From Pseudobacter ginsenosidimutans (GTDB lineage Bacteria; Bacteroidota; Bacteroidia; Chitinophagales; Chitinophagaceae): a stretch of DNA of 64,000 bases. Shown in pieces: positions 8,897 to 58,575 of the stretch (position 1 is its first letter; each line of letters begins with the position of its first letter). The DNA lies in contig NZ_CP042431.1 in the NCBI RefSeq assembly GCF_007970185.1, forward strand, positions 5,828,001 through 5,892,000. The letters run 5' to 3'. Both the position numbers and the translations under genes were made by a program. Under the pieces are notes generated by a model. That model worked only from the letters and a program-made list of their open reading frames with translations. It did not search any database and was not told the DNA's origin.

Positions 8897-9147
8897 AAAT
8901 GCAATAGATAGCTGACCTACTCACATACCTATGAATTTGCAGATAAAAATAGCCTCTTCGCTGTACTCTATTTAATCATTAATACTATAGCATTTTTGAT
9001 TTCAAAGAATTGAAATATGTGAAAGCAATACTACCCAGTGTCAACGGCTCCCCCTCCTTCACCTGATGCCGCCGGATAGCCCCCGTACTTGCTGTATGGG
9101 GATTTTTAGTTTGCGGCAATTCCTACAAATAATCAAAATTACTTATT
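8897..9147. other. Intergenic leader before the recombination/ATPase genes
   Basis: About 250 bp without an ORF. Near 9082-9101 the arms CCCC and GGGG followed by a T-run (GGGGATTTTT) could form a weak terminator-like hairpin; the stem is only four base pairs, so this is uncertain. Nothing else was recognised. Confidence 0.3.
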
Positions 9148-9495
9148 ATGGTTACTATTACTGGCTATGTTCTTCGTCAGAACAAGGAGGGGAAATCCTT
9201 TGTTGCATTGGAAATCTCAGGAGATATTGAAATGATCCAATCTTCCAGTTCCGGAAGATTTTACATGACTGCTAAACGATGCAGTATACCTTCCACCTTC
9301 ACAGAAGAAACAGCAAAGCATCTTATCGGTAAAACGATGCCGGGACACATTGACAGGGTGCAAACTGAACCTTATGAATACACTGTGAAGGAAACAGGAG
9401 AAGTCATTACGTTGGTGCATACCTATGCGTATGTGCCGGAAGAAAGACCGCACCATAGTATAGCAATGGCTTCCGAAGCATTGTTGGGTGCGTAG
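9148..9495 (+). CDS. Conserved element protein of unknown function
   Basis: A 115-residue cytosolic protein with no signal peptide. The sequence is mostly beta-strand (VTITGYVLRQNKEGKSFVAL near the start, ITLVHTYAYVPEE near the end), which would fit a small OB-like or barrel fold. It is followed after 57 bp by a RecA-like ATPase gene, and single-strand DNA-binding or annealing proteins often sit in this place in phage recombination modules. No specific motif supports that function, so the role is a guess from context. Confidence 0.55.
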   Translation: MVTITGYVLRQNKEGKSFVALEISGDIEMIQSSSSGRFYMTAKRCSIPSTFTEETAKHLIGKTMPGHIDRVQTEPYEYTVKETGEVITLVHTYAYVPEERPHHSIAMASEALLGA

Positions 9496-26229: not shown

Positions 26230-26252
26230 TTGATAAGAATAATTCTATTGTT

Positions 26253-42603: not shown

Positions 42604-43194
42604 GTGGCAACTACCCAACCATACCCTGAAAGCGAACTGCTCTTACGCCTGGCTGCCGGAGAAGAAGGCGCCATGAAAGCGCTGTATGAAAGCTATTTCT
42701 CCAGGCTCTACTATTTTGCCTTCAAGATGATCGGAGTGGAAAGGGAAGCCGAAGATATCGCACAGGAAGCTTTGATGAGCTTCTGGCAACGCAGGGACCA
42801 GTTCACCCACAGTACGCTGAAGGAAGCCGGATCCTATCTTTTCACCATCGCCAGGAATCGTTGTTATAATTATACCCGGGATAAAAATACACGCATCAGC
42901 AAACATGCTGAAATAGCCGCAGAGCAGGAGATATCCGAAGACTCACTCACATTGAATATTATCCGTGAAGATATCTTCAACCGTATTTACCAGGAGATCC
43001 AACAATTAGCGCCAGCCCAGGTAGCCCTCCTGAAAATGATCTTTATCGAAAACCTGGATACAGCCGAGATTGCAGAAAGATTGCAGACCACACCCAACAA
43101 CGTTCGCAACCAGAAGGCCCGCGCATTGGAAAAACTAAAAACAGCCCTGCTCCGTAAAAAACTCCTTACACAAATTCTTTTACTTTTTTACTGA
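42604..43194 (+). CDS. RNA polymerase ECF sigma factor
   Basis: 196 residues from a GTG at 42604. Region 2 is at about 25-90 (YYFAFKMIGVEREAEDIAQE, SYLFTIARNRCYNY), region 4 at about 130-185 (LLKMIFIENLDTAEIAERLQ, NNVRNQKARALEKL). There is no extra domain. The layout is the Bacteroidota sigma factor that partners FecR-like anti-sigma factors, encoded 76 bp downstream. A TTAGTTTG box 25 bp or so before the start resembles the -7 consensus with one mismatch. It would direct transcription of the SusC operon downstream, as in FecI/FecR systems. Confidence 0.93.
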   Translation: MATTQPYPESELLLRLAAGEEGAMKALYESYFSRLYYFAFKMIGVEREAEDIAQEALMSFWQRRDQFTHSTLKEAGSYLFTIARNRCYNYTRDKNTRISKHAEIAAEQEISEDSLTLNIIREDIFNRIYQEIQQLAPAQVALLKMIFIENLDTAEIAERLQTTPNNVRNQKARALEKLKTALLRKKLLTQILLLFY

Positions 43195-43270
43195 TAGTTG
43201 TGATGCTTTGCCTTGCTGGCGTGTTTACATAATAGTAACAGGCTTTTAGCCACCTAAAACCTTCCATCTT

Positions 43271-44446
43271 ATGCATACAGACAGCAACAATATTAATGAC
43301 CTTATCTATAAGCATCTTCGCGATGAAGCACTTTCTCAGGAAGAACAGGCAAGTTTGGATCATTGGCTGGAGCAGTCGGCGGCAAACCGGCAACTGTTAT
43401 CGGAACTGACGAACGAGCATGAATGGAATGCCTACTGGCAGATCAGAACAGATGAAGCAAGAACGAATAGTGCTTACAACAGATTCAGGGAAGCAGTATT
43501 TATTCCTCCGCAGGAAGAGCAGGGATCTGCCACTGAACCCCGGATCCGTTCCATCGGCAGCTGGAAATGGGTAGCGGCAGCAGCAGCAGTACTGATCATG
43601 ATATCAGTTGGCGCTTATCTCTGGATCAACACGGGTAAGCAAATGGATACAGACCTTCCCACGGCCGCAAAACAAGTCGCACCAGGAAAGAATGGCGCAA
43701 TCCTTACACTGGCAGATGGCTCCACCATTGTGCTGGACAGCCTGAACAACGGGATCATCGCATCACAGCAGGGAGCAAAGGTTCACCTGGAGAACAGTAA
43801 ACTGGTGTATGATCCTGCCGGTAAAACCTCCGGCGATATATCGTACAATATCATGACCACACCAAGAGGCCGGCAGTTCCAGGTCAGTTTACCGGATGGT
43901 ACAAAAGTATGGTTGAATGCGGGAAGCTCTTTACGCTACCCAACTGCATTTGAAGGCAATGATCGCACAGTGGAAATAGCAGGCGAGGCTTTTTTTGAAG
44001 TGGCTAAGAACAAGCAAAAGCCTTTCATCGTGAAAACACATGCAGACAGGATCACAGTAACAGGCACACAGTTCAACGTGAATGCTTATGCGAATGAGCC
44101 CTTCATGAAAACTACCCTCGTGGAAGGTTCCGTAATGATCAACAATGCAGTGCTGAAACCCGGTCAGGCATATATGAATGGACAGATCCTGAAGACTGAT
44201 GCCGACCAGGATATAGCCTGGAAAAATGGATTCTTCAATTTCACCAACCAGGACCTGCCTGCCGTAATGCGCCAGCTGGAAAGATGGTATGATATCGATG
44301 TGAAATTTGTGGGCGCAGCAAAGCCATTCAGTTTTAATGGAAAGATGGACCGCGGCATGCAACTGAGCGATGTATTGTTCTTCCTGGATGAAATGAAGAT
44401 AACGTACAAACTGGAGGGTAGGACCCTCACCATCTCAAATGAATAA
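43271..44446 (+). CDS. FecR-family anti-sigma factor
   Basis: 391 residues. The cytoplasmic N-terminus (about 1-95) would hold the sigma factor. One membrane helix (WVAAAAAVLIMISVGAYLWI, about 97-116) crosses the inner membrane, followed by a periplasmic FecR domain (about 140-280, LPDGTKVWLNAGSSLRYPT) and a C-terminal DUF4974 domain (DLPAVMRQLERWYDIDVKF). In the known mechanism the STN domain of the outer-membrane SusC partner signals through FecR to release the sigma factor. The SusC gene follows after 199 bp, with a hairpin between. Confidence 0.93.
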   Translation: MHTDSNNINDLIYKHLRDEALSQEEQASLDHWLEQSAANRQLLSELTNEHEWNAYWQIRTDEARTNSAYNRFREAVFIPPQEEQGSATEPRIRSIGSWKWVAAAAAVLIMISVGAYLWINTGKQMDTDLPTAAKQVAPGKNGAILTLADGSTIVLDSLNNGIIASQQGAKVHLENSKLVYDPAGKTSGDISYNIMTTPRGRQFQVSLPDGTKVWLNAGSSLRYPTAFEGNDRTVEIAGEAFFEVAKNKQKPFIVKTHADRITVTGTQFNVNAYANEPFMKTTLVEGSVMINNAVLKPGQAYMNGQILKTDADQDIAWKNGFFNFTNQDLPAVMRQLERWYDIDVKFVGAAKPFSFNGKMDRGMQLSDVLFFLDEMKITYKLEGRTLTISNE

Positions 44447-44542
44447 ATACCTTTTACCATAACACCTCCAATCCTGCCATTCAATCACCTAAATGCACCA
44501 ACCATGGCAACTTAAAAGCATTGGGCAAGCTCCATAAAAAAA

Positions 44543-44566
44543 CCGAAGGTGGGGAAACACCTTCGG
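44543..44566 (+). promoter_or_regulatory. Hairpin between fecR-type and susC-type genes
   Basis: CCGAAGGTG (44543-44551) and CACCTTCGG (44558-44566) form a perfect 9-bp stem with loop GGGAAA, 80 bp before the chosen SusC start. There is no T-run. It could act as an mRNA processing or stability element that separates regulator from transporter levels. An A-run lies on its 5' side, so it could also terminate minus-strand transcription. Confidence 0.5.
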
Positions 44567-44645
44567 CGAAATGAATGGGCTGACCCCAATAACAAGATTC
44601 CTTTTCAAGCTGCTCATTATTCATCAACCCAAACATTGCAAAGGT

Positions 44646-47600
44646 ATGCCAAAAACTGCTTTTTGCAGGTGTTATGTACTTCCCATGTCTATACCCGAAA
44701 GAGGAGGTAAGCGCCTGCTGACCAAAACCCTGTTAGTGATGAAACTAACGATCCTGCTTCTGACAGTATCCATTCTCCACGCCAATGCTGGAGGATTTGC
44801 GCAAAGCATCAGTCTTCAAGGCAAAAATCTGCCGGTGGAACAAGTGATCAAGAGCGTGGAAAAACAAACAGGATATGTTTTCCTGTATTCACGCGAAGTG
44901 CTGGCCAACACACGCACTATCACTATCGATGCTTCCAATACACCATTGAAGGAATTCCTGCAACAGGCATTCAGGGACCAACCATTCCGTTTTTCTATCC
45001 GGAGTAAGACCATCTTGCTTTTACAGAAAACAATGGCCCTGGAAAGTATCGATCTGCCTAAAGATTCCATACAGAACATACCCGAAGCAATCAAAGTAAA
45101 CGGCCAGGTATTTGGCGTGAATAATCAGCCGCTGATAGGCGCCAGTGTGCGAAAGCAGGGCACAAAAGAATTTGTGTTGACTGACCACAACGGAAGATTT
45201 GTGATCAATGCCGAAATAGGAAGCAAGTTGCTTGTGTCGTATGTAGGCTATGAACTGTACGAATGGAAAGTGACCGGCCCGCAGGTGAGGATCCCGCTTC
45301 AGCTTGTAGTGAATGATCTCGATCAGACAGTGGTGACTGCATATGGCAAAACAACCAAAAGACTGGCAACAGGAAATATCAGCACCGTGAAGGGAGAAGA
45401 TATCCAGCGGCAACCAGTGATGACTGTTCTGGAAGCATTGGTTGGCCGTGTTCCCGGCCTGATAGTTAATCAAACCTCAGGCAATGGTGCAGCGCCGGTG
45501 AGTCTTTTGATCCGCGGAAGAAATACGATCAACTCCACTGTGCCAACTGACCCGCTCTATGTGATAGATGGTGTGCCGCTTACTTATCTCAACGTAAGCA
45601 CGTCTACCAGTGCACTGGATTTTAGTCCTGGAGCAGTACAATCCGGTGTATCCAATACCAATGGAGAAAATCCACTGCTGAGCATAAATCCAAACGATAT
45701 TGAACGTGTAGATGTACTCAAGGATGCTGATGCAACAGCCATCTATGGTTCGAGAGGCGCCAATGGCGTTGTACTGATCACCACTAAAAAAGCAAAAGCC
45801 GGCCCTCCCAGTTTCAATATCAGCATTGGCAATGGTCTTAAGTTCAACCAACGCTATCCAAAACTGCTGAGCACTCCTGAATATCTCGCCATCCGGAGAG
45901 AAGCGCTTCAGAACGATGGTATTGCTGCAGACATCTACAGCGCCCCGGACCTGATGCTCTGGGATACCACCAAATACACAGACTGGCAAAGGGAAATGAT
46001 CGGAGTGGGCAATATGCTCAACGTGAACATTGGTGTTGGAGGTGGTACCACGCAAACCAGTTATGCACTGTCAGCAGGTTTTCGATCACAAAAAGAGCTC
46101 ATGAACAATGATGGGAAAAACAACGTTGTGAACCTCCTCACTTCTGTGAACCATAGCGGACTGAACCAAAAATTCAAGCTGTCATTCGGCAATTCAATGG
46201 CAGTAAGCGATGTGAAATCATATGCGTTGGGTTTGCTTACCGATATTCCACCCAATGCTCCCGATATCTATACTGAAAAAGGTGATTTCAACTTTATCCC
46301 ATACAGGGGACGAACTTCCAGTTTATTTTATTTTTCCAGACTCAAATCACCCAGTGAAAGCAAGTCGATCAAATTAGGCTCTCAACTGAATATCAGTTAT
46401 CAGATCATAAAGGGCCTGATCATTTCTGCAAGCGGCGGACATAACTTCAGTAATAACCAGAACAGGGCCATTACTCCTGCTGCTTCGCGGGACACGCTGT
46501 ACAGAAACGCTCCCGGCGCATACTATGGAAGAAGCACTCAAAATGATTTTAACATCGAACCTCAACTGGCATATTCAACAATGTTGGGCAAAGGGAATTT
46601 ATCAGTTCAGCTGATAGGAACATATTTCACCAGTACCGCCAGGGCTGAAACCATTCACGGGACGGATTTTACCAATGATGCATTGATGAAGAGCTACAAC
46701 AATGCAGGTACTAAAACAGTCAGTGAAGGATTCAGACAATACAAATATCTTTCGGCAGCAGCCATCCTCAGGTATATATGGGATAATAAATACATCATTA
46801 ACCTGAATGCTAAAAGAGATGGCTCCTCAAGGTTCGGACCTGGCAAGCAATTTGGGAATTTTGCTTCTGTAGGCGCCGCATGGATCTCGTCTGACGAGCG
46901 CTGGATGAAAGCAGTATTGCCCAAATGGATCAGCCTGCTAAAATTCAGAGGCAGTGTTGGCGCTACAGGCAGCGATAATGTAGGAGAGTTTGAGTACTTA
47001 TCCCAATGGGGCACTGCTCCTGCAGATCTGAATCCATTAAAGCTTTTCAGGTACAACGGAGTAGATGCTTACCATGTACTGAAACCTTTGAACCAGGAAT
47101 TTCAATGGGAAACTACTTTCAAATCCGAATTTGGTGCAAGCCTGGGATTCCTGAATGACCGCGTATTGCTGGAGTTTGCTGCTTACAGGAATATATCCAG
47201 TAATCAACTCACCAATATGCCAACGGGATTGTTTACAGGTTTTGCTTCAACTGTAACTAACCTGGCCGCAAAAATTGCCAACACAGGTATTGAATTTCAG
47301 ATGACTGCTAAATTGATCGAGCGAAAAGATTTCAATCTCTCGGTAGATTTCAATATCAGCAGGAACAGGAACCGTCTCCTCGAATTTCCCGGTATCGAAA
47401 ATTCAATATACAATAACAGGTTGAGGGTAGGGCAGCCAACCACTGTGGAATATCTCCTTCGCTATACCGGCATAGATCCGCTCACTGGTTCGCATAGTTT
47501 TGAAGACTACAATAAGGATGGTGTGATCACTGCCGGATCCAGGTTCTTTCTTCCAACACTTCCCAACGAGGACAGGTATATAACCATCGATAAAGCTCCA

Positions 47601-48077
47601 AAATATTTCGGGTCTACAGGATTGAATATATCCTACAAAGATTTTTCAATCTCTACCAGACTTGATTTTAAGAATCAACTGAGGGAAGATCCTTACCTGA
47701 CGGCCATTGTAGGAAGCATGAAGAATATTTCACTCCCTGCTGAGATCCTGAACAACCATTGGAGGAATCCGGGTGATATAGTTAAGTATCCCAGGTTTAC
47801 CACAGAAGGCACAAGGATCAACAGCAATAACCTTGACAGGTCAGATGCCAAATATGTTAACGGATCTTTCCTGCGCATGAATAATCTTTCCATCGCCTAC
47901 AGGTTCCCGCAAAGCTGGTGCAAAAAGATCGGCGTCAAGAACATTGGGATCTCTATCAATACCCAAAATCTCTTTACGATAAGTCCCTACAAAGGCCTGG
48001 AGCCGGATCTCCAGACTTCCATCTACGCCACTCCGATCCCGAGGACCATCAGCACCAATCTCCGACTCAATTTCTAA
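44646..48077 (+). CDS. SusC-type TonB-dependent transporter with STN signalling domain
   Basis: The start is taken at ATG 44646 (MPKTAFCRCYVLPMSIPERG), because this N-terminal form is common in family members from Chitinophagaceae; the frame runs up to 44571. About 1,143 residues. After a long signal region come the STN domain (about 58-125, LPVEQVIKSVEKQTGYVFLY), the carboxypeptidase-like domain (about 150-230), the TonB box (QTVVTAYGKTT), the plug (LLIRGRNTI, YVIDGVPL, GSRGANGVVLITTKKA) and the barrel to TISTNLRLNF. STN contacts the FecR periplasmic domain, which links substrate arrival to sigma release. SusD starts 10 bp downstream. Confidence 0.95.
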   Translation: MPKTAFCRCYVLPMSIPERGGKRLLTKTLLVMKLTILLLTVSILHANAGGFAQSISLQGKNLPVEQVIKSVEKQTGYVFLYSREVLANTRTITIDASNTPLKEFLQQAFRDQPFRFSIRSKTILLLQKTMALESIDLPKDSIQNIPEAIKVNGQVFGVNNQPLIGASVRKQGTKEFVLTDHNGRFVINAEIGSKLLVSYVGYELYEWKVTGPQVRIPLQLVVNDLDQTVVTAYGKTTKRLATGNISTVKGEDIQRQPVMTVLEALVGRVPGLIVNQTSGNGAAPVSLLIRGRNTINSTVPTDPLYVIDGVPLTYLNVSTSTSALDFSPGAVQSGVSNTNGENPLLSINPNDIERVDVLKDADATAIYGSRGANGVVLITTKKAKAGPPSFNISIGNGLKFNQRYPKLLSTPEYLAIRREALQNDGIAADIYSAPDLMLWDTTKYTDWQREMIGVGNMLNVNIGVGGGTTQTSYALSAGFRSQKELMNNDGKNNVVNLLTSVNHSGLNQKFKLSFGNSMAVSDVKSYALGLLTDIPPNAPDIYTEKGDFNFIPYRGRTSSLFYFSRLKSPSESKSIKLGSQLNISYQIIKGLIISASGGHNFSNNQNRAITPAASRDTLYRNAPGAYYGRSTQNDFNIEPQLAYSTMLGKGNLSVQLIGTYFTSTARAETIHGTDFTNDALMKSYNNAGTKTVSEGFRQYKYLSAAAILRYIWDNKYIINLNAKRDGSSRFGPGKQFGNFASVGAAWISSDERWMKAVLPKWISLLKFRGSVGATGSDNVGEFEYLSQWGTAPADLNPLKLFRYNGVDAYHVLKPLNQEFQWETTFKSEFGASLGFLNDRVLLEFAAYRNISSNQLTNMPTGLFTGFASTVTNLAAKIANTGIEFQMTAKLIERKDFNLSVDFNISRNRNRLLEFPGIENSIYNNRLRVGQPTTVEYLLRYTGIDPLTGSHSFEDYNKDGVITAGSRFFLPTLPNEDRYITIDKAPKYFGSTGLNISYKDFSISTRLDFKNQLREDPYLTAIVGSMKNISLPAEILNNHWRNPGDIVKYPRFTTEGTRINSNNLDRSDAKYVNGSFLRMNNLSIAYRFPQSWCKKIGVKNIGISINTQNLFTISPYKGLEPDLQTSIYATPIPRTISTNLRLNF

Positions 48078-48087
48078 AACACTGCTC

Positions 48088-49539
48088 ATGCGTAAACAAA
48101 CCTTCATACATACAATTTGCATCCTGATCTCAGCATCGGTGCTGGTTAGCAGCTGCAAAAAACTACTGGAAACAGAACCTCCGATCTCGAGCATTTCCAC
48201 GGAAGAAATGTTTTCCAATAACCAGCAGGCCGAACTGGCTATAGCCGGTATCTACTCAAAGATGATCAATGGCATTGACATGGTATCCACATCGGGGATA
48301 ACCAATACTTGCTTTGCAGCAGGACTCACTACCATTACAGCCGGTTTGTCGTCTGATGAGTTGATGATCACTGGAAACAATATTGCCGATGATCTGGCGC
48401 TTTCACAGAATAAGATCCTGCCGTCAAACACCAGGCGGACAGATGCTATCTGGAATTCTGCATTCAGGACTGCATATGATGCCACTGCCGTTATAGATGG
48501 TATCGCTGCATCAACTTCAGAAGAACTGGTAGAGAGCGTAAGGAATCAACTGACGGGAGAAGCGCTGGCCATCCGCGCCTTCAGTTATTTCTACCTGGTG
48601 AATTCTTTTGGCGATGTTCCGCTGGTGCTCAGTTCCGATTCAAAGAAAAACGTTGCATTGCCAAGAGCGCCTGTTTCAAAAATATATGAGCAGATCATTG
48701 CAGACCTCGTAAAGGCCCGCTCATTATTGAGCAGTGATTTTGCTTTCGCGAAAAATGAAAAAGTGAGGGTCAGCAAATGGTTTGCCGAAGCATTGCTGGC
48801 ACGTGTATACCTGTACACTGGTCAATACCAGTCGGCCATCAGCAGCGCAACGGAAGTGATCAATCAGAAAGCCCTTTTTGACCTCGAACCGGACCTTGGA
48901 AAAGTGTTCCTGAAACAAAGCAAGGAAGCCATCTTCCAACTGAAGCAAACTAGCGAAAATGCATACCAGAAACTGGGGACGCCGGAAGGTCTTGCTTTTT
49001 TGTATAATGCCAATACCGCAGGAACGCCGCCTTATATAGTATTGAGCGATCAACTGCTCGGCAGTTTTGAAGCTAATGATCAACGCCGTACTTCCTGGGT
49101 TGCTTCCTATCCTCCCTACCTGGCGCCTGCCAAGTATAAGAATGGAGAAGGTTTGGAATATTATATCGTGATGCGATTGGCTGAGCTGTACCTGATCCGC
49201 GCAGAAGCCACCGTACTGGGCTCACCGGCAAATGTAAACGCTGCCATTGCCGATATCAACCAGCTCAGAAAAAGGGCCAATGTAACAGAGCTGGAATTGG
49301 ATCTGCCTGCTGCAACTGTAATCGATGCCATCGCACATGAACGAAAGATAGAGCTGTTTGCAGAATGGGGCCATCGCTGGTTTGATCTGAAGAGAACAGG
49401 CAAAGCACATGATACCCTGTCTGCCATTCCCAACAAGCAACCCTGGTGGGGTGATTTCCAGTTACTCTATCCCATTCCGGAGAAAGAGATCAATGTGAAT
49501 GGACAGTTGATTCAAAACCCCGAATACAATACGCTCTAA
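48088..49539 (+). CDS. SusD/RagB-family surface lipoprotein
   Basis: 483 residues with a lipoprotein signal peptide (MRKQTFIHTICILISASVLV then SSC). The SusD_N part (about 24-220, ISTEEMFSNNQQAELAIAGI) and the TPR-rich C-terminal part (RAFSYFYLVNSFGDVPLVL, HERKIELFAEWGHRWFDLKR) are complete. It would cover the SusC channel and bind substrate at the surface. It follows SusC by 10 bp and precedes the DUF4397-like lipoprotein by 11 bp. Substrate unknown. Confidence 0.94.
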   Translation: MRKQTFIHTICILISASVLVSSCKKLLETEPPISSISTEEMFSNNQQAELAIAGIYSKMINGIDMVSTSGITNTCFAAGLTTITAGLSSDELMITGNNIADDLALSQNKILPSNTRRTDAIWNSAFRTAYDATAVIDGIAASTSEELVESVRNQLTGEALAIRAFSYFYLVNSFGDVPLVLSSDSKKNVALPRAPVSKIYEQIIADLVKARSLLSSDFAFAKNEKVRVSKWFAEALLARVYLYTGQYQSAISSATEVINQKALFDLEPDLGKVFLKQSKEAIFQLKQTSENAYQKLGTPEGLAFLYNANTAGTPPYIVLSDQLLGSFEANDQRRTSWVASYPPYLAPAKYKNGEGLEYYIVMRLAELYLIRAEATVLGSPANVNAAIADINQLRKRANVTELELDLPAATVIDAIAHERKIELFAEWGHRWFDLKRTGKAHDTLSAIPNKQPWWGDFQLLYPIPEKEINVNGQLIQNPEYNTL

Positions 49540-49550
49540 AAAGATATTCA

Positions 49551-50303
49551 ATGCAAAATAATTTCTTATTGTTATGTACTGCATTCCTGCTTATAACGGT
49601 AATGAATGCATGCAGCAAACGCGAACTGAATCCCGGCTCTCCAGCCACCATACAGGTTTACAATGCCCTCAATGATGGTTCTGCAGTATACATGGATTTT
49701 TCAGGCAAACGCCCTGCAGTATTCAGAACAACCCGCCTTTTCAGTGTCAACACTTCCGGCAGGCTTACACTGGATGCATCGCCTCTGCCCGTGCAACTGT
49801 ACAGCAGACCTGATACGATGGCTAAGGATGGTCCGATATTGACAGCCAGTCTTGATTTTGAAAAAGGCGCTATTTATTCCATGTTCATCTATGGTTCCAA
49901 ATCAACGGCAAAATACAGCTGGCATAAAGATGTGATACCACCACTCGGCATGTCTGACAGCACCACACATATCAGGTTTGCCAATTTCAGCGAAGAACAC
50001 AATATCAGCGTGAACCTGAAAGGCCAGCCAACCGGTAGTTTCATTCAGCAATTACAACTGAGGTCTTTTTCTGATTTCACAGAACTGAGCGCCAACAAAT
50101 CTGTTGCGAAATACGAATTTGAAATAAAAGACCTCAATACCGGAACCATCATCGCCACCTATGTTGCCGATAAGGTGAACGATTTCACCGGCAATGGCGG
50201 AAACAATGCCTGGTTCAACAAATCCAATACCCTGGTGCTGGTTGGGAAACAGGGTGGTACCGGTACCGTACAACCGAAAGTGGTTGTTATGCCTCACCGA
50301 TAA
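49551..50303 (+). CDS. DUF4397-like surface lipoprotein
   Basis: 250 residues. The lipoprotein signal has Cys near residue 21 (ITVMNACSKRELNPGSPATI). The body is beta-rich and reads like two DUF4397-type immunoglobulin-like units: AMF-type strands ATIQVYNALNDGSAVYMDFS and, further on, HIRFANFSEEHNISVNLKG. Such domains bind ligands or stabilise surface complexes. It is the third gene of the operon, 11 bp after SusD and 41 bp before the ABC ATPase gene. The family call is by eye. Confidence 0.7.
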   Translation: MQNNFLLLCTAFLLITVMNACSKRELNPGSPATIQVYNALNDGSAVYMDFSGKRPAVFRTTRLFSVNTSGRLTLDASPLPVQLYSRPDTMAKDGPILTASLDFEKGAIYSMFIYGSKSTAKYSWHKDVIPPLGMSDSTTHIRFANFSEEHNISVNLKGQPTGSFIQQLQLRSFSDFTELSANKSVAKYEFEIKDLNTGTIIATYVADKVNDFTGNGGNNAWFNKSNTLVLVGKQGGTGTVQPKVVVMPHR

Positions 50304-50344
50304 ATATTCACTTTCATCAGTATTTAATTTATCCATTACATATT

Positions 50345-51265
50345 ATGAGTACAGTGTTAAAAGTGGAGAACCTCTCCCATAGGTATTCCTCTGCCTGGGC
50401 TATCCGTGACCTTAACTTCGAGATCAGCCAAACAGGCGTGATCGGACTGCTCGGCTCCAATGGAGCCGGCAAGTCCACCACCATGAATATCATTTGTGGC
50501 GTACTGAAACAAACGGAAGGAGATGTATACATCAATGGCATCAATAAGAAGAATGATCCGAGGCTGGCCAAAAGACAGCTGGGATTCCTTCCGCAAACTC
50601 CGCCGCTCTACGCAGACTTTACCGTGAACGAGTACCTGACCTATGCGGCAGACCTTCGTTTCATTGAAAAAACTCAGGTAAAGAAGGCAGTGGCTGAAGC
50701 CATGGACAAAACCGGGATCTCACATTTCAGTTCCCGGCTGATCAAAAACCTGTCTGGTGGCTATAAGCAACGCGTAGGCATTGCACAGGCCATCATTCAC
50801 AAACCAAGTGTTGTAATATTGGATGAGCCAACCAACGGACTTGATCCCAACCAGATCATCGAAGCCAGAAAACTGATCCGGGAGATCGGCAATGATCATA
50901 TCGTATTGCTGAGCTCACATGTTTTGTCTGAGATCAACCTGCTATGCCGTGATATCATCATGATTGAAGGAGGCCGCATCGTTTTCTCAGATTCAATGGA
51001 TTCATTCAATAACTACCTGCAGCCATCCAGCGTGATCGCCATTATGGAAAACCCACCACCGGAAACCGAGCTGACAAAAATTGCAGGAGTGACCCGCGTG
51101 GAATTCCTTACCGGTAAACAGTGCCGGATCTTCTTCAATGGCAACACCAATATCACAGAAACCATTATTGCCGCCAGCATGCAGCACCAATGGAGACTGC
51201 AGGAGATCCACCTGGAAAGATCCCTGCTGGATGATGTGTTCAAACAATTATCCAGACAATCCTAA
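50345..51265 (+). CDS. ABC transporter ATP-binding protein (GldA-like)
   Basis: 306 residues. Walker A is GSNGAGKST at residues 37-45, the Q-loop is FLPQTPPLY near 81, the ABC signature is NLSGGYKQR near 136, Walker B with the catalytic Glu is VVILDEPTNG near 157, and the H-loop is LSSHVLSE near 193. The C-terminal 85 residues are the extension found in gliding-type GldA and other ABC-2 exporters. It powers the GldF-GldG-type permease encoded 11 bp downstream and possibly the second permease at 56260, which has no ATPase gene of its own. Confidence 0.92.
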   Translation: MSTVLKVENLSHRYSSAWAIRDLNFEISQTGVIGLLGSNGAGKSTTMNIICGVLKQTEGDVYINGINKKNDPRLAKRQLGFLPQTPPLYADFTVNEYLTYAADLRFIEKTQVKKAVAEAMDKTGISHFSSRLIKNLSGGYKQRVGIAQAIIHKPSVVILDEPTNGLDPNQIIEARKLIREIGNDHIVLLSSHVLSEINLLCRDIIMIEGGRIVFSDSMDSFNNYLQPSSVIAIMENPPPETELTKIAGVTRVEFLTGKQCRIFFNGNTNITETIIAASMQHQWRLQEIHLERSLLDDVFKQLSRQS

Positions 51266-51276
51266 ATCCTGCGACC

Positions 51277-53598
51277 ATGAAAATATATTTGAAAATAGCC
51301 CGGGCAGAATTACGATACCTGTTCTACTCGCCGGTAGCCTGGTTTGTGCTGCTGGTGTTCTATACATTCGCTGCCTACCTTTTCTTTTTTCCGCAGGAAA
51401 GCAAAACCATCGTACAGGAAGAGATCCTGGATACAACGCTCGACTGGATGGGAGTTGCTCCGGGGTTATATGGCGACATGATCGGCCCGATTGTGAAGCA
51501 ATTGACAGATAACCTGTATCTGTTCATTCCTCTACTCACTATGGGTGTGATCAACAGGGAAACCACCAGCGGCTCCATCAAGCTCCTGTATTCATCTCCC
51601 ATCAGGACAAGAGAGATCGTTTTGGGAAAATACCTGGGGATGGTTTGCTTCAATGCCTTTCTGCTGCTGGGTTTTGGAGTAGTGCTGGCCACTGCCAGTT
51701 TCACTATCAGCGATCCGGAAACGGGCTGGATGATCTCTGCACTGTTCGGCATGTTCCTCATTGCGAATGCCTATACAGCAATCGGTATTTTTATCAGCTC
51801 CCTCACCAATTACCAGATAGTGGCAGCAGCACTGACCTTTGTCGTTTTCTTTGCCATGAATCAATTGTCAGGACTCTGGCAGCAATACGACCTGGTGCGC
51901 GATCTCACTTACTCATTTTCTTTGAAGACCAAAGCAATAATGCTACTGAGAGGAATGCTCACCAGCAGGGATATTATTTATTTCCTGCTCATCGCAGCCC
52001 TTTTCCTGTTCTTTACTTTGATCAGGTTGAAAAGCATGCAGGAATCGAAAACAAGAAAACTGGTTTTCTCCAGGTATGCACTGGCCTTCCTTGCAGTGGT
52101 AATGCTGAGCTATCTTTCTTCCAGACCTGGTTATATCCTGTACCACGATCTCACAAAAAACAAGAACAACACTTTACATCCTGTTTTGCAGGATGTGGTA
52201 AAAAAACTGGATGGATCACCTCTTACTGTAACGCTTTATGCCAACCTGTTCCACCCGCGAGCGTACGCGGCACTGCCACAGAACAGGGTCAATTATTTCC
52301 TGGATCTCTGGGAAGAATATATCAGGTTCTATCCAAACCTGAAGTTCAAATTTGAATACTATTATGATATCAACGAGGGAGACAGCAGTTTGTATAAAAA
52401 GTACCCGGGAAAAAGCATGGATGAAATTGCTGCAATCAGATGCGAGATCCTGGACATCCGTAAGTCGCTTTTCAAAAAGCCTTCGGAGATGAAGAACATG
52501 GCGGAGCTGCGTGATGAAGAGCTCAGGATGCTGATGGAACTGGATTACAAAGGACGCAAAACCATTTTGAGGGCTTTCGATGATGGCAAAACCTGGCCCA
52601 AAGAAGAAAATATTGCAGGCTCTTTGATGAGACTGGTCCGCGACAACGATGTGAAAACAACATTTCTCACCGGCCATATCGAACGCAGCCCGTATAGATT
52701 CACGCCAAAAGATTTTGGGGGTATGGTCACCAATAAGGATTTCCGGAATTCCCTGATCAATAAAGGTGTGGACGCAGATACAATTTCCATTGCCGATAAA
52801 GAAATTCCTGACAACCTGGACCTGTTGGTAGTGGCTGATCCCAGAACTCCCTACAATGAAGCAGAATTGAACCGCCTCTCGAAATATATCGATGCAGGGG
52901 GAAATGCAATTGTATTAACAGAGCCGGGCAGGCAACAATTCCTGGATCCAATTTTGAAGAAGCTCGGCGTGCAGGTAGATCATGGAACCATTGTGCGTAT
53001 CGATAAAGATGAAAAGCCCACAATTTTCTCCAACAGATTTACGGATGAAGCCAACCTGATGGCTGATGAATTATACTGGCAATATTATAATTGGTACCGG
53101 AAATGGTACCTCGGAGGATGGGCTATGAACGATGGAGCCGCCAGTCTGAATGTTGAGCCTGTAAATGGTTTCAAGCCAACGCCTATCCTGATCATGCCCG
53201 GCGATCAAAACACCTGGATCGAGAATGGCTTGTTTGTAGTGGATTCCGCAGCACCGGTATTTTCTGAGCAGGAAGGTGATATCAGGAAACCAGCTTACAA
53301 TATTGTGGTAAGTCTGACAAGAACGATCAACAACAAAGAACAACGGATCATCGTTGCCGGTGATGCCGATTTCATGAATACAAAAAGAGTTCCACAAGGC
53401 AAGATCTGGCAGGCGCTCTACAGCTGGGGATTGAATAACCAGTATCCCGTATACGCCAACAAGCGAATGCCACCGGACAGGTTTTTCTCCATCAGCAACA
53501 AAACAGCCGGGATCTTACTAGGCATCTATGTTTATTTGATTCCGGCAGCATTGTTATTGATAGCTGCCATCATCCTCGTGAGAAGAAAGAGAAAATAA
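51277..53598 (+). CDS. GldF-GldG fusion ABC permease, copy 1
   Basis: 773 residues. Residues about 1-255 are an ABC-2 permease like GldF (KIYLKIARAELRYLFYSPVA, LLTMGVINRETTSGSIKLL; about six membrane segments). Residues about 260-740 are a GldG-like region of the ABC-type uncharacterised transport family (LRLVRDND, FLTGHIERSPYRF, LLVVADPRTPYNEAELN), followed by a last membrane helix (LLGIYVYLIPAALLLIAAII). In Flavobacterium these are two separate proteins; here they are fused. It follows the ATPase by 11 bp. Copy 2 at 56260 has the same plan. Confidence 0.92.
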   Translation: MKIYLKIARAELRYLFYSPVAWFVLLVFYTFAAYLFFFPQESKTIVQEEILDTTLDWMGVAPGLYGDMIGPIVKQLTDNLYLFIPLLTMGVINRETTSGSIKLLYSSPIRTREIVLGKYLGMVCFNAFLLLGFGVVLATASFTISDPETGWMISALFGMFLIANAYTAIGIFISSLTNYQIVAAALTFVVFFAMNQLSGLWQQYDLVRDLTYSFSLKTKAIMLLRGMLTSRDIIYFLLIAALFLFFTLIRLKSMQESKTRKLVFSRYALAFLAVVMLSYLSSRPGYILYHDLTKNKNNTLHPVLQDVVKKLDGSPLTVTLYANLFHPRAYAALPQNRVNYFLDLWEEYIRFYPNLKFKFEYYYDINEGDSSLYKKYPGKSMDEIAAIRCEILDIRKSLFKKPSEMKNMAELRDEELRMLMELDYKGRKTILRAFDDGKTWPKEENIAGSLMRLVRDNDVKTTFLTGHIERSPYRFTPKDFGGMVTNKDFRNSLINKGVDADTISIADKEIPDNLDLLVVADPRTPYNEAELNRLSKYIDAGGNAIVLTEPGRQQFLDPILKKLGVQVDHGTIVRIDKDEKPTIFSNRFTDEANLMADELYWQYYNWYRKWYLGGWAMNDGAASLNVEPVNGFKPTPILIMPGDQNTWIENGLFVVDSAAPVFSEQEGDIRKPAYNIVVSLTRTINNKEQRIIVAGDADFMNTKRVPQGKIWQALYSWGLNNQYPVYANKRMPPDRFFSISNKTAGILLGIYVYLIPAALLLIAAIILVRRKRK

Positions 53599-53624
53599 AA
53601 TACTGTATTAAAAACAACGAGACG

Positions 53625-54914
53625 ATGTTCCTGCAAACGGATGATCAAACGATCGAAGACCTCAGGCTATTTGCCAAAAAAGAACAAAAAGGAATCTACG
53701 ATATCTACAATAATGCCGCAACCCGCGGCGGAGAATTGCTGCTGGAAAAAATGTTCAGGAATCCATTGTCTGACCTGGAAGCTATCACCGAAAGAAGCGG
53801 CATCATTGGATCATTTGCAAAAATGAGAACAATATTCCCTTTTCAACCGGCAATCCTGGATAGCGTGGAGAAATACCTCAGCCAGGATCAGGAACAGCGG
53901 GATGGGCAAAAGTCAACGCTCGGCGAACGCGAGATGGCCAATGGCATTGCCGCGATCATCGAGTTGCTGCATGCCCTGCATTCATTCCTTGAAAAAGGAG
54001 ATATAACGAAGGTCAGCGGATTGAAAAGGGAAAGTATAGCCATGATCAACCTCTTGAACGATCCCGGTCTTGAACCTGCTTTCAAAGAGAAACCCGGATC
54101 GAAACTTTCCTATGCTGCCATCACAGCTTTTGATATTCTCTTCCGGGTAAAAGAAAGGACCCGGATTACAACTGCACTGAATTTCATCTACCAACTGGAT
54201 GTATACATTGCCGTTGGTGCAGTTGCCAATAAAAGGGATTTCACTTTTCCACTTGCAAGGCCCAAAGGCAGCAACCTGCTGAAGATAGAAGGCGTGTATC
54301 ATCCCGAGTTGAACTCTCCTGTGCCCAACAGTCTTCATATGCATGCAGGCAAATCAGTTGTGTTTCTTACAGGAGCCAATATGGCGGGCAAGTCCACTTT
54401 TCTCAGATCATATAGTACAGCAGTGTATATCGCGCATATGGGATTCCCTGTTGCAGCTGCTTCCGTGGAGTTTTCGGTTATGGATGGGATTTATACAACC
54501 ATTAACCTGCCGGACAATCTTGGCATCGGGGCCAGTCACTTTTATGCGGAAGTACTGAGGGTAAAGAAAGTAGCCACCGAATTGGGAGCCGGAAAATCTC
54601 TTTTCATCCTGTTCGATGAATTGTTCAGAGGCACCAATGTAAAGGACGCGCATGAAGGTACTGTGGCCATCACACATGCTTTTGCGGGCAAGGGGACAAG
54701 TATGTTCATCATTTCTTCCCATATAGTGGAAGCAGGGGATGAGCTGAAACAGAAAAGGAATATTGCTTTCCATTATTTGCCCACCAGGATGAAGGGCACT
54801 GTTCCCGAATATACCTATACGTTGGAAGAAGGGATCACGGACGACCGGCATGGCATGATCATCATTCGCAATGAAGGCATTTTGGAAACACTGAAAAACG
54901 GGAAGAAAAACTAA
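53625..54914 (+). CDS. MutS-core ATPase without mismatch-recognition domain, copy 1
   Basis: 429 residues against more than 800 in MutS. Residues about 5-230 resemble the lever/clamp domain III (TRGGELLLEKMFRNPLSDLE). The ATPase domain V has Walker A LTGANMAGKSTFLR at 248-261, ILFDELFRGTNVKDAHEGTV for Walker B and signature, and ISSHIVEAGDEL. Domains I (mismatch reading) and II are absent. In MutS the ATP-binding sites form between two subunits, so this and copy 2 may form a heterodimer. It lies between two GldF-GldG-type permease genes, which no standard repair role explains. Confidence 0.85.
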   Translation: MFLQTDDQTIEDLRLFAKKEQKGIYDIYNNAATRGGELLLEKMFRNPLSDLEAITERSGIIGSFAKMRTIFPFQPAILDSVEKYLSQDQEQRDGQKSTLGEREMANGIAAIIELLHALHSFLEKGDITKVSGLKRESIAMINLLNDPGLEPAFKEKPGSKLSYAAITAFDILFRVKERTRITTALNFIYQLDVYIAVGAVANKRDFTFPLARPKGSNLLKIEGVYHPELNSPVPNSLHMHAGKSVVFLTGANMAGKSTFLRSYSTAVYIAHMGFPVAAASVEFSVMDGIYTTINLPDNLGIGASHFYAEVLRVKKVATELGAGKSLFILFDELFRGTNVKDAHEGTVAITHAFAGKGTSMFIISSHIVEAGDELKQKRNIAFHYLPTRMKGTVPEYTYTLEEGITDDRHGMIIIRNEGILETLKNGKKN

Positions 54915-54919
54915 CTGAT

Positions 54920-56236
54920 ATGAATTTTACCATCGATAAGCAATCACTGGATGAATTGAACCTCCTGGGTAAGTTCAGACAAGGATCTGTGTATTCTCTT
55001 TTTAACCAGGTGAAGACGCGTGGCGGTGAACAATTGCTGGATCAGCTGTTCCGTACACCCTTGACAGATGCTGAAGCCATCAATCGCCGGACTGCCGTTT
55101 TTCGTTTTTTCCAGGAATCGAAATTCCAATTTCCATTCGATGCGCAACAGGTAGTGCTGATGCGGGAATATGTGGATGCAGAAAGCAGTAAGAATTACAT
55201 GCAGACCTGGGCAGGGGTGCTGCTGAAAAAATGCTTGTCGTCCCTCACGCGCGATGAGCGATACAAGGCGCTTATCCAGGGGCTGCAGGCAACCATCGTT
55301 ACGATGAAGAAATGTTTCGGCTTCGCCAGTTCTTTATCAGCAATGACCGGCCCTTACCAGCAGGAGGCATCAGCCATCTTGCAGATCCTGCAATCTCCGG
55401 AGATCAGCAGGCTGATCGATACGGATATCTATACAGACATTTCCGTTGGAAATATTGCCAGGTATGATCATCTGCTGAAAAATAAACTCAACAAAGAGAT
55501 CAGGCTGATCCTGGACTTTATTGCCGCATCGGATGTAAATATCGCTGTAGGAAATATTGCCGCGGAAAAAGGATTTACTTATGCCAGAGCCATGCCAAAA
55601 GAAAGGAATATTTTAAGAGCTATCGATCTGAAACATCCCTCCATTGGTGGCGCTATTGGCAATACCATTGAAATGGCGGCGCAACAGAATGTGATCTTTC
55701 TCACCGGCGCTAATATGGCAGGTAAATCAACCTGGATGAAGAGCATCGGTATCGGGATGTACCTGGCGCATATCGGATTTCCTGTGGCGGCAAAGTCCAT
55801 GGAATTCTCGGTAAGGGAGGGCATTTATTCCAGCATCAATGTTGCGGATAATATTGCGCTTGGCTATAGCCATTTCTACGCAGAAGTGGTAAGGGTTAAG
55901 AATGCTGCTGATGCAACTGCTACCGGAAAACACCTGCTGCTGATGTTCGATGAACTGTTCAAAGGCACCAATGTAAAAGATGCATTCGATGGCACGCTGG
56001 CGGTAACGGAATCATTTGCAGAATATACCAACTGTCTCTTCATTGTGAGCACACATATCATAGAAGTGGGCGCTGCATTGAAAAACAGGAATAATATACA
56101 ATTCACTTTCATGCCTACAGTACTGGAAGGAAGCGTGCCCAGGTATACGTATCGTTTACAGGAAGGCATAACCGAAGACCGGCAGGGAATGATGATCATC
56201 AGGAATGAAGGCATTCTTGAACTGATCGGCAATTAA
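54920..56236 (+). CDS. MutS-core ATPase without mismatch-recognition domain, copy 2
   Basis: 438 residues with the same plan as copy 1: domain III-like (about 5-240, VKTRGGEQLLDQLFRTPLTD), then domain V with Walker A LTGANMAGKSTWMK at 261-274, MFDELFKGTNVKDAFDGTLA and VSTHIIEVGAALKN, and the final RYTYRLQEGITEDRQGMMII. It begins 5 bp after copy 1, so the two are made together and are paralogues from a tandem duplication. No mismatch-recognition or nuclease domain is present. The second permease follows by 23 bp. Confidence 0.85.
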   Translation: MNFTIDKQSLDELNLLGKFRQGSVYSLFNQVKTRGGEQLLDQLFRTPLTDAEAINRRTAVFRFFQESKFQFPFDAQQVVLMREYVDAESSKNYMQTWAGVLLKKCLSSLTRDERYKALIQGLQATIVTMKKCFGFASSLSAMTGPYQQEASAILQILQSPEISRLIDTDIYTDISVGNIARYDHLLKNKLNKEIRLILDFIAASDVNIAVGNIAAEKGFTYARAMPKERNILRAIDLKHPSIGGAIGNTIEMAAQQNVIFLTGANMAGKSTWMKSIGIGMYLAHIGFPVAAKSMEFSVREGIYSSINVADNIALGYSHFYAEVVRVKNAADATATGKHLLLMFDELFKGTNVKDAFDGTLAVTESFAEYTNCLFIVSTHIIEVGAALKNRNNIQFTFMPTVLEGSVPRYTYRLQEGITEDRQGMMIIRNEGILELIGN

Positions 56237-56259
56237 TATCAATCTTAATTATCACTGAC

Positions 56260-58575
56260 ATGAAAATCATATTTAAAATCGCCAGGGCAGAGCTCAGAAC
56301 ATTGTTTTATTCTCCCATTGCCTGGGTGATCCTGGTTACTTTCTTTGTTGTTACCGGCGTATTTTTTGTAACACCGCTTATGAACATGGCCAGGGCGCAG
56401 GAAGTGCAATTGGCCAACAGTCCATCCTGGACAGGGTTCCAGGGGCCATTGACATTATCTATGTTCAGTGTTACGCTTGAGAACGCCATGTCTTATCTCT
56501 ACCTGTTCATTCCATTGCTGACCATGGGAACCATCAGCAGGGAAGTGAATTCCGGGTCGATGAACCTGTTGAGCTCTTCTCCCATCAGGATCAGGGAGAT
56601 CATTGCAGGCAAATACCTGGGTCTGATGTTATTTGGCCTGGTATTGATGTCGTCCATCGCATTGCTGTTGCTCACAGGTTATTTCAGTATCGTGAATGCA
56701 GAATTGAAATGGTATATGTCCATAATGCTGGGGTTCTGGTTGCTTTCCAGCACTTACCTGGCCATCGGTTTATTTATTTCCTGTTTGACCAATTACCAGA
56801 TCATGGCAGGTATCGCCACTTTTGTGGTATTCTTCCTGCTGAGTATTATGGGGACTGTTTGGCAGCAATATGATTTCGTGCGTGATATTACCTGGTTCCT
56901 GAGCATCGATGGAAGAGTAAAGTCGATGACGATGGGTTTGATCACTACCAAAGACGTATTTTATTTCCTGCTCATCATTGCTTTATTCCTGGGGCTCTCC
57001 ATGATCAAATTGAAAACGAGACAGGAATCTGCAAAATGGACAGTCCCATTTTCCAGGAGCATTGCCTGGGTGGTGCTGATCCTCACGATCGGGTATTTCT
57101 CATCCCGTCCGGGTTATATCGGTTACCTGGATGTAACCAGGGACCAGCGCAATACCATCGACTCCGCTACCCGGGCAGTGTTGAAAGAACTGGACGGTTC
57201 GCCGCTCACCGTAACATTGTTCACCAATTTATTTGGCGGGAATTTTCCGATCGGACTTCCTGAAGCAAGGAACAATTACGTATGGGGCGTCTGGGATAAA
57301 TATGTGCGGTTCTATCCCAATATCAAATTGCAATACGAGTATTACTATGACACGGAAAAAGGCGACAGCACAGCGTATCTCGGGTATAAAAATAAAACCC
57401 TGCATCAGATCGCAAAGTCGAAAGTGAGGATGTATAAGATTGATATCAACGATTTCAAAAAACCGGAAGAGATCAGGAAAATAATTGATTTTGGCGATGA
57501 GCCTTTGAGGATGTTGATGCTACTGGAGTATAAAGGAAAGAAAGAATTCCTGCGCACTTACAGCGCCAGTGATCCCTGGCCCACGCAACCGAATGTTTCC
57601 GGAACCATCAGGCGATTGACAAGGGAAAAAGTCCCCAATATTACTTTCATAACGGGGCACTATGAGCGAAGTCCCTGGCGGAATGGTGAAAGAGAGTTTG
57701 GTTCTCATACCAACAGTAAGCTGGAAAAACCCGCCCTCATCAATCTGGGCGTCAATACAGATACTGTTTCTCTTTTGCATTCGGAAATCCCTGATTCCAC
57801 AGACCTGCTGGTGGTGGCTGATCCCAGGTCTGCATTGCTGCAAGGTGAGCAACAGAAGATCCTGGAATACCTGAACAAAGGAGGCAATGCCATTTTCTAT
57901 GCCGAACCGGGTAAGCAGCAAATGCTGAATCCGATACTGAACCAGCTGGCAGTGAACATCGATTCCGGAATATTGGTATCACCGCGAAAACACAGGGAAG
58001 GGGAAATATTCAATGGTATCATGACCAGGGCCGGAAATTACATGGCGGCGGAAGGCATGATGCAGCTCTATCAACGGTTTGGTAAAATTGGAGCATCGGC
58101 TAGTTTCAGTGGAAGCAGCACCGTGAGTTTCCTGGAAAAGAATGGATTTACAATTGAGCCGATCGTTTCGGTGGCAGGTAACAAAAATACATGGATCGAA
58201 AAAGGGATTTTCGTGTCGGATTCTGCAGCGCCAATATTTGCAGCCAGTGAAGGAGATTTGAAAAAAGAGGAATATGTGCTGGCGGTGAAGATGTCCAGAA
58301 AAATAAATGACAGGGAGCAAAGGATCGTGGTGAGCGGAGATGCAGATTTTATGTCGTTGGACCAGAAAAATGGGATGTCGATCGGAACAGGTTTGTACAG
58401 CTGGCTGATGAATAATGAATACCCGGTGTATACGAAAGTGAGATTGCCAACGGATAAGATGCTGACAATAGGGAGGACCGCAGGAAAAATGATCTGGTAT
58501 GTTTATGTGTATATTATTCCGGGATTGTTGCTGGCGCTGGGAGCAATTATTATTATCAGGAGAATGAGAAAGTAA
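56260..58575 (+). CDS. GldF-GldG fusion ABC permease, copy 2
   Basis: 771 residues, a clear paralogue of the product of the 51277 gene (both start MKI-x-x-KIARAELR-x-LFYSP). The order is ABC-2 permease part (about 1-255), GldG-like soluble part (FITGHYERSPWRNG, LLVVADPRSALLQGEQQ, VVSGDADFMSLDQKNG), and a terminal membrane helix (MIWYVYVYIIPGLLLALGAI). It ends the operon, followed by a strong bidirectional terminator. Two fused permeases could form the two halves of one exporter. Confidence 0.92.
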   Translation: MKIIFKIARAELRTLFYSPIAWVILVTFFVVTGVFFVTPLMNMARAQEVQLANSPSWTGFQGPLTLSMFSVTLENAMSYLYLFIPLLTMGTISREVNSGSMNLLSSSPIRIREIIAGKYLGLMLFGLVLMSSIALLLLTGYFSIVNAELKWYMSIMLGFWLLSSTYLAIGLFISCLTNYQIMAGIATFVVFFLLSIMGTVWQQYDFVRDITWFLSIDGRVKSMTMGLITTKDVFYFLLIIALFLGLSMIKLKTRQESAKWTVPFSRSIAWVVLILTIGYFSSRPGYIGYLDVTRDQRNTIDSATRAVLKELDGSPLTVTLFTNLFGGNFPIGLPEARNNYVWGVWDKYVRFYPNIKLQYEYYYDTEKGDSTAYLGYKNKTLHQIAKSKVRMYKIDINDFKKPEEIRKIIDFGDEPLRMLMLLEYKGKKEFLRTYSASDPWPTQPNVSGTIRRLTREKVPNITFITGHYERSPWRNGEREFGSHTNSKLEKPALINLGVNTDTVSLLHSEIPDSTDLLVVADPRSALLQGEQQKILEYLNKGGNAIFYAEPGKQQMLNPILNQLAVNIDSGILVSPRKHREGEIFNGIMTRAGNYMAAEGMMQLYQRFGKIGASASFSGSSTVSFLEKNGFTIEPIVSVAGNKNTWIEKGIFVSDSAAPIFAASEGDLKKEEYVLAVKMSRKINDREQRIVVSGDADFMSLDQKNGMSIGTGLYSWLMNNEYPVYTKVRLPTDKMLTIGRTAGKMIWYVYVYIIPGLLLALGAIIIIRRMRK

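Follow-up and report, generated by a model that had tools for sequence, protein, structure and literature searches.

MutS-core ATPase pairs accompany Gld-type ABC transporters and SusCD importers in a recurrent gene cassette of Pseudobacter ginsenosidimutans

In a 64,000-nt window (the whole stretch of DNA analyzed) of contig NZ_CP042431.1 of Pseudobacter ginsenosidimutans (assembly GCF_007970185.1; 7,797,595 bases in one contig), ten genes join an extracytoplasmic function (ECF) sigma factor, a FecR-type signal transducer, and a SusC-SusD outer-membrane import pair to an ATP-binding cassette (ABC) transporter of the GldA/GldF/GldG type and to two ATPases, MutSa and MutSb, that consist of a MutS core. 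This cassette is one of 56 diverged paralogous copies in the genome; its transporter and MutS genes are linked, and they have evolved jointly. We tentatively favor the view that it senses and imports ligands, probably polypeptides, and that a dedicated MutS heterodimer would work or gate its Gld-type ABC transporter. MutS proteins are known as DNA repair factors, and their core seems here to have been coopted for a membrane transporter. An earlier note, made from the sequence of the window, knew of no described pathway that combines MutS-like ATPases with Gld-type transport; likewise, we found no published description of a partnership between a DNA repair protein family and membrane transport in the accessible literature, which includes few subscription journals.

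The cassette comprises the following features (window positions; domain labels were assigned with Pfam and NCBIfam profiles, using Pfam E-values up to 0.01 for the MutS domains):

42604–43194, + strand: ECF sigma factor (Sigma70_r2, Sigma70_r4_2; TIGR02937 over its cut-off)
43271–44446, + strand: FecR anti-sigma factor/signal transducer (FecR, FecR_C over cut-off)
44542–44567, no strand assigned: strong hairpin in the FecR-SusC gap
44571–48077, + strand: STN-SusC TonB-dependent outer-membrane transporter (STN, Plug; TIGR04056, SusC/RagA, 653.6 bits)
48088–49539, + strand: SusD lipoprotein (SusD_RagB, SusD-like_3)
49551–50303, + strand: DUF4397-like lipoprotein (Cys 21 invariant across 26 aligned rows)
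50345–51265, + strand: GldA-like ABC ATPase (ABC_tran; best NCBIfam match GldA, 262.6 bits, cut-off 402.6)
51277–53598, + strand: GldF-GldG fusion permease 1 (ABC2_membrane_2 and ABC_transp_aux; GldF 91.2 bits)
53625–54914, + strand: MutSa, MutS core ATPase, lever and ATPase (MutS_V over cut-off, MutS_III below)
54920–56236, + strand: MutSb, MutS core ATPase, lever and ATPase (MutS_V over cut-off, MutS_III below)
56260–58575, + strand: GldF-GldG fusion permease 2 (ABC2_membrane_2 and ABC_transp_aux; GldF 81.6 bits)

The earlier note had listed these ten genes in this order and given gaps of 5–41 bp after SusC. All open reading frames (ORFs) are indeed present on the + strand, Pfam and NCBIfam agree on their domains, and the gaps from SusC onward measure 10, 11, 41, 11, 26, 5, and 23 bp. 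The real start of SusC may lie further inside the ORF than the annotated one at 44571. With adjacent SusC and SusD genes and sigma and FecR genes upstream, the cassette has the gene layout of an ECF/FecR-type SusCD locus, and no carbohydrate-active enzyme or glycoside hydrolase was matched by Pfam among its ten genes (search limited to 42604–58575). DUF4397 is matched weakly by the lipoprotein in the window (E = 0.011) and, at E ≤ 0.1, by 21 members of an aligned set of 26 that includes it.

A MutS_V search of the whole genome yielded 117 matches, 112 of which form 56 neighboring pairs; the five unpaired ones comprise frames of 910 aa (with the top score), 716 aa, 600 aa, and 445 aa and one partial match. 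Sister loci were retrieved as 58 stretches of 20 kb, in which ORFs were labeled by BLAST and then by profiles built from the cassette copies. Three stretches (L019, L055, L061) contain no cassette pair, and the 55 others together with the window give the 56 loci. Counted anywhere on the same strand within the 20 kb, SusC occurs in 56/56 loci and SusD, GldA, and the GldF-GldG fusion (GldFG) in 55/56 each. The 56th locus, L012, is permuted, with the order MutSa-MutSb-sigma-FecR-SusC, and is completed by stretch L219, where SusD in pieces, DUF4843 and PKD-like genes, GldA, and GldFG follow. All 56 MutS pairs are accompanied by SusC, SusD, GldA, and GldF-GldG nearby. FecR was recovered in at least 49 loci and the sigma factor in at least 48, both of which are lower bounds because cassettes with two permeases can extend past the fetched end. 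As the cassette recurs across the genome, a chance arrangement is excluded. At an assumed 15 kb each, the copies amount to 10.8% of the genome, about a tenth of its length being spent on this arrangement, and they are scattered, 14 distances between neighbors falling below 25 kb (random mean 9.0, maximum 19). Seven loci (L017, L028, L030, L037, L041, L042, L060) have broken-up SusC or MutSa ORFs and may be decaying copies of a birth-and-death family, or contain sequencing errors. The genes between SusD and GldA encode a DUF4397-like lipoprotein in 27 loci, an Mx1-like lipoprotein in 15, and DUF4843 and/or PKD-like proteins in 8, with other or no recognized genes in the remaining 6; GldFG genes of more than 600 aa number one in 28 loci, two in 26, and none in 2.

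The same gene neighborhood is found in other genomes. Five congeners have 23, 37, 9, 51, and 7 MutSb-like matches at 1e-30, and the copy number thus varies widely. In a sample of 392 genomes of the phylum, searched with the MutS alignment at 1e-60 and with at most four candidates scored per genome, 18 genomes match, and G000, G387, and G116 alone reach 598–682 bits. The remaining 15 contain one more distant MutS core each (two in G025) with 275–350 bits; no SusC or GldFG was seen in nine contexts of such distant cores, and in two of them (L092, L097) another ABC ATPase gene lies close by. GldF-GldG fusions were detected in 11 of the 392 genomes. A larger set came from a named genome collection, which holds at least 598 matching stretches, 580 of them encoding a relative; the best 80 of these 580 were analyzed. 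They derive from Pseudobacter/Pseudoflavitalea, Chitinophaga, Niastella, Longitalea, Puia, Pedobacter, Mucilaginibacter, Sphingobacterium, and a few other or unclassified bins. MutSa and MutSb are adjacent or fused in 79 of these 80, and among the 72 loci with at least 6.5 kb of upstream sequence, GldA and GldFG lie on the same strand no more than 7.5 kb upstream in 69. The other 3 (L164, L177, L179) are permuted with GldA downstream. The reading of the earlier note would have been refuted if homologs of the MutS and permease genes were not neighbors in other genomes; they are neighbors there, and this test did not refute it. Where 9 kb of upstream sequence was available, SusD was found in 66/69 and SusC in 61/69 loci; of the eight loci lacking SusC, five start with SusD because the flank ends there, two are permuted, and the last, L116, is a true exception. 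In all permuted loci (L012/L219, L164, L177, L179) the MutS pair comes first and GldA last, with the parts still together.

The association appears one-sided. Twelve loci combine SusC-SusD and GldA-GldFG without MutS, nearly all of them with sigma and FecR: six in one genus of another family, where an M16-like gene follows in every case, and six more, of which L207, L208, and L213 come from other genomes and L216, L217, and L218, from P. ginsenosidimutans itself, offer built-in controls for the contribution of MutS. No cassette-type MutS match was obtained in the eight genomes behind the nine outside loci, in a search that scored up to four candidates per genome. In the opposite direction, GldA or GldFG lies on the strand of the MutS genes in 134 of 135 locus-strand sets with 6.5 kb of upstream sequence, and the 135th is the permuted L012, completed by L219 (sets spanning up to 4 kb were included, and some pairs enter twice where stretches overlap). 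As transporter loci without MutS exist and no MutS pair with sufficient flank was seen without the transporter, MutS appears to depend on the transporter and not the reverse. The earlier note had read the genes from SusC onward as one unit of about 14 kb; the cassette is one of 56 copies, and the existence of GldA-GldFG-SusCD loci without MutS implies that the MutS pair is no fixed part of the unit. In a GldA tree of 83 rows, the presence of MutS requires 4 changes; the deep forks do not separate a single gain followed by losses from multiple gains.

Pairwise identities among the cassettes of P. ginsenosidimutans were compared between genes by Mantel correlation, with 38 to 54 loci per gene pair. 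The correlation is highest between MutSa and MutSb (rho = 0.92), followed by GldA-GldFG (0.85), GldA-MutSa (0.84), GldA-MutSb (0.83), and GldFG with MutS (0.74–0.75). SusC and SusD correlate at 0.70, and values between the SusC-SusD block and the GldA-GldFG-MutS block are 0.23–0.49. FecR reaches 0.27 with SusC, 0.12 with SusD, and 0.00–0.08 with GldA, GldFG, and MutS. This pattern suggests three evolutionary modules, namely sigma/FecR, SusC-SusD, and GldA-GldFG-MutSa-MutSb. The suggestion that the MutS proteins and the Gld transporter work in the same process, which the earlier note had marked as conjecture, thereby gains evidence from the joint divergence of all four genes. Median identities are 0.24–0.25 for SusC and SusD, 0.40 for GldFG, and 0.60–0.65 for MutS and GldA. 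This gradient would fit receptors that diversify around a conserved inner engine, with the permease in between, so that one engine might serve many ligands.

The ATPase motifs are conserved in both MutS proteins. Walker A is intact in 51/51 MutSa and 51/51 MutSb sequences, Walker B in 50/51 and 51/51, and the signature motif in 51/51 and 51/51, respectively; in GldA, Walker A is present in 54/55 and LSGG in 55/55 sequences, and the Walker B pattern, which is probably too narrow, matches 27/55. Only MutS_III and MutS_V were detected in MutSa and MutSb (E ≤ 0.01), and Pfam gave no match to the mismatch (I), connector (II), clamp (IV), SMR, or KOW domains. In MutSa, 188 residues span positions 1–191 of the MutS_III profile, so that a nested clamp would not fit; in MutSb the profile is matched at positions 2–66 only. 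A model of MutSb built from 106 rows has a predicted local distance difference test score (pLDDT) of 90.1 and a predicted template modeling score (pTM) of 0.88, and the 50 Foldseek matches listed for it are all chains of the MutS family (TMq 0.63–0.76). Natural MutSa-MutSb fusions number nine among all loci. In a quick tree of 64 rows with long branches, which includes ten single cores, MutSa forms one clade (starred, value 99) and MutSb makes up the remaining cassette rows. Single MutS cores that measure about 440 aa and retain the ATPase motifs occur at L019:5953-7266 and in L092–L095 and L109. The product of the gene preceding the single core resembles a dihydroorotase by sequence in 6 of 7 contexts (the same six loci).

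Clues to the ligand come from accessory ORFs, which were collected directly behind MutSb or GldFG and in the interval from SusD to GldA. Their largest clusters, whose identities were confirmed by Pfam for one representative each, are M16-like peptidases (15), S41-like peptidases (14), and DUF4369-TlpA thioredoxins (8). These peptidase and TlpA neighbors, and the likeness to protease-associated import systems (see below), suggest that the ligand is a polypeptide. The Mx1-like lipoproteins are not claimed as enzymes; Peptidase_Mx1 was matched in 4 of 20 members, and no HExxH motif was present among the 25 listed.

Sensing by STN, FecR, and ECF sigma factors and TonB-dependent import by SusCD are established features of these families. 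Following this family biology, SusC-SusD, aided by the surface lipoprotein, would capture a particular ligand, the STN domain would signal, via FecR, to the ECF sigma factor of the same cassette, and SusC would import the ligand, probably a peptide or small protein, in a TonB-dependent manner. GldA and GldF-GldG, with the GldG part outside the cytoplasm, would form an inner-membrane ABC-2 transporter, as expected from the gliding GldAFG proteins, and act, whether inward or outward, on the ligand, on fragments of it, or on what these bring about. In the cytoplasm, MutSa and MutSb would pair into a heterodimer in which both ATP sites work; its build would be that of MutS minus the mismatch-reading and connector domains, and Pfam detects no clamp domain in it. 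The dependence of the MutS genes on the transporter, their joint divergence with it, and the missing DNA-handling domains lead us to infer that this heterodimer may be dedicated to the ABC transporter and gate or remodel it by ATP-driven opening and closing. We regard it as possible, with reservations, that the whole represents a new class of machine in the cell envelope, one in which a MutS heterodimer reduced to its core acts as the dedicated gate or ATPase subunit of an ABC-2 transporter, which in turn is coupled to TonB-dependent outer-membrane import. If so, membrane transport would be among the roles of the MutS family, and a single genome would have expanded this role to 56 copies that are probably specific for different ligands. 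The diverging receptors, combined with a conserved inner engine, offer natural experiments on ligand choice.

Several known systems share parts of this design. ECF/FecR-controlled SusCD loci for the utilization of polysaccharides or oligopeptides have the same sigma, FecR, STN-SusC, and SusD genes in the standard order, with surface lipoproteins alongside; the cassette differs by the ABC-2 transporter and MutS pair in the same gene run and by the lack of a glycoside hydrolase. Protease-associated import systems (Fus, with FusA, FusC, and FusD, and YddB/PqqL), described for Proteobacteria in the part of PMC6793856 considered here, resemble the cassette by their TonB-dependent importer and by a gene for an inner-membrane transporter, and they include a protease of the M16 family; a term search of the main text of this paper found no SusD, ABC, FecR, or MutS. 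M16 is absent from the cassette in the window and present beside some sister loci and MutS-less loci. The gliding proteins GldA, GldF, and GldG (PMC5682007, in part) are the nearest named families for the cassette ATPase and permease. In the cassette, however, GldF and GldG are fused and adjoin SusCD, and scores remain below the gliding cut-offs (GldA 262.6 of 402.6, GldF 91.2 of 288.5, GldG 27.7 of 389.85). With MutS, MSH2, and MutS2 the cassette proteins share the lever and the ABC-type ATPase core, and a PDB profile matches MSH2 at 2.5e-32; in contrast to these, cassette MutS is 438 aa long and occurs as a pair of distinct subunits, in which mismatch, connector, clamp, SMR, and KOW domains remain unmatched, and it scores far below the NCBIfam MutS cut-offs. 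KamC, a MutS-related reactivase ATPase of NCBIfam (cassette MutS 95 bits, cut-off 300), is a MutS core named as an enzyme-reactivating ATPase, but no aminomutase is among the ten cassette genes. Mechanical work of a MutS core on a complex other than DNA has a precedent in MutS2, which splits stalled ribosomes by its ABC ATPase (PMC10897456, in part).

A number of points weigh against the reading favored here. ABC-2 transporters are usually exporters and fit poorly with uptake. The joint divergence could partly reflect the copying of whole cassettes and shared deep subfamilies; FecR is the sole low control, and its correlation with SusC (0.27) resembles that of SusC with GldA (0.24). In a PDB profile match, residues 113–385 of cassette MutS align to 447–728 of chain 5x9w with little gap, a stretch that presumably includes the part of MutS where the clamp lies, and a clamp remnant may thus be present. 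The geometry of the MutSa-MutSb heterodimer is a proposal, as the AlphaFold model of a natural fusion (six rows) is poor (pLDDT 64.2, pTM 0.43) and was not used for the interface. The loci without MutS demonstrate that the transporter needs no MutS in principle, and in L116 GldA-GldFG-MutSa-MutSb has no SusCD directly upstream, with sigma and FecR on the opposite strand. With regard to the ligand, 45 accessory ORFs are singletons, beside the clusters of 15, 14, and 8; the cassette in the window has no peptidase gene inside; and the DUF4397, DUF4843, and PKD-like proteins tell little.

Given that ABC-2 families mostly export and that peptidases can be maturases, the flow might also run outward: GldA-GldFG would export a peptide with the assistance of MutS, the peptidases would mature it, and SusCD with ECF/FecR would sense or retake the product. 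Such a self-signaling or RiPP-like (ribosomally synthesized and post-translationally modified peptide) circuit would agree with the SusCD genes that adjoin RiPP clusters in Bacteroidota according to part of a preprint (PMC12636315). We nonetheless consider it unlikely, for the neighboring peptidases vary from cassette to cassette, and no peptide-modifying enzyme was recognized among the accessory clusters (representatives searched; the 45 singletons and ORFs below 70 aa lie outside this search). It is less probable still that each cassette senses, binds, and removes or degrades a different antimicrobial peptide of a competitor. The many diverging receptors, the peptidases, the ABC-2 transporter, and a seemingly ligand-responsive control would suit such a defense, but a TonB-driven importer makes an odd shield, and no specific PADLOC family was found, although PADLOC covers phages and not peptides. 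In that search of seven proteins, five had no match at all; GldA matched 17 ATPase models (best mad3, 91.5 bits), which probably reflects general ABC similarity, and MutSb had one weak match (E = 0.0093). The reading as an anti-phage defense system was rejected for the lack of a specific family among these seven proteins.

The MutS fold and its intact ATPase motifs could also speak for a function on DNA as in MSH4-MSH5, for example, in recombination among the 56 cassettes, which would provide many targets in the genome. Yet the pair has no mismatch, connector, or clamp domain by Pfam, diverges jointly with GldA and not with FecR, and is also present in genomes with one or few cassettes (G010, G116, G387), which renders this explanation very improbable. 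Finally, the MutS pairs might be passengers that reside in the cassettes by historical accident, since these seem to be copied as blocks. There is hardly any room for this, as the motifs are intact despite deep divergence (median identity 60–62%), the order is conserved across families, and fusions occur in several lineages.

Stems of at least 7 perfect pairs occur in 16 of 48 sister FecR-SusC gaps, compared with a mean of 3.05 after mono-shuffling (each gap was taken with 60 nt of SusC, and two hairpins were counted twice in overlapping stretches). The hairpin may mark the end of the sigma-FecR transcript. A further ECF sigma gene often precedes GldA, mostly after the Mx1-like gene (10 sigma-GldA and 9 Mx1-sigma neighbors), and in L059 the ECF identity of the second sigma factor (8692–9369), located between the lipoprotein and GldA, was confirmed by Pfam; some cassettes thus carry two sigma factors. 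Because of these hairpins and the second sigma genes, the sigma and FecR genes may be transcribed separately from the rest. The Bacteroidota promoter pattern TTTG-N-TANNTTTG occurs 3 times in the window (2.28 expected by chance) and not in the locus, and a scan for sigma-70-type promoters gave 17 sites, below the shuffled sequences (28.3).

Elsewhere in the window, a large secreted-looking protein is encoded just upstream of the sigma gene (38884–42456), with a C-terminal end that resembles a type IX secretion sorting signal. Tandem ORFs of 1050 and 494 aa at 23077–27737 suggest, by size alone, another SusCD pair.

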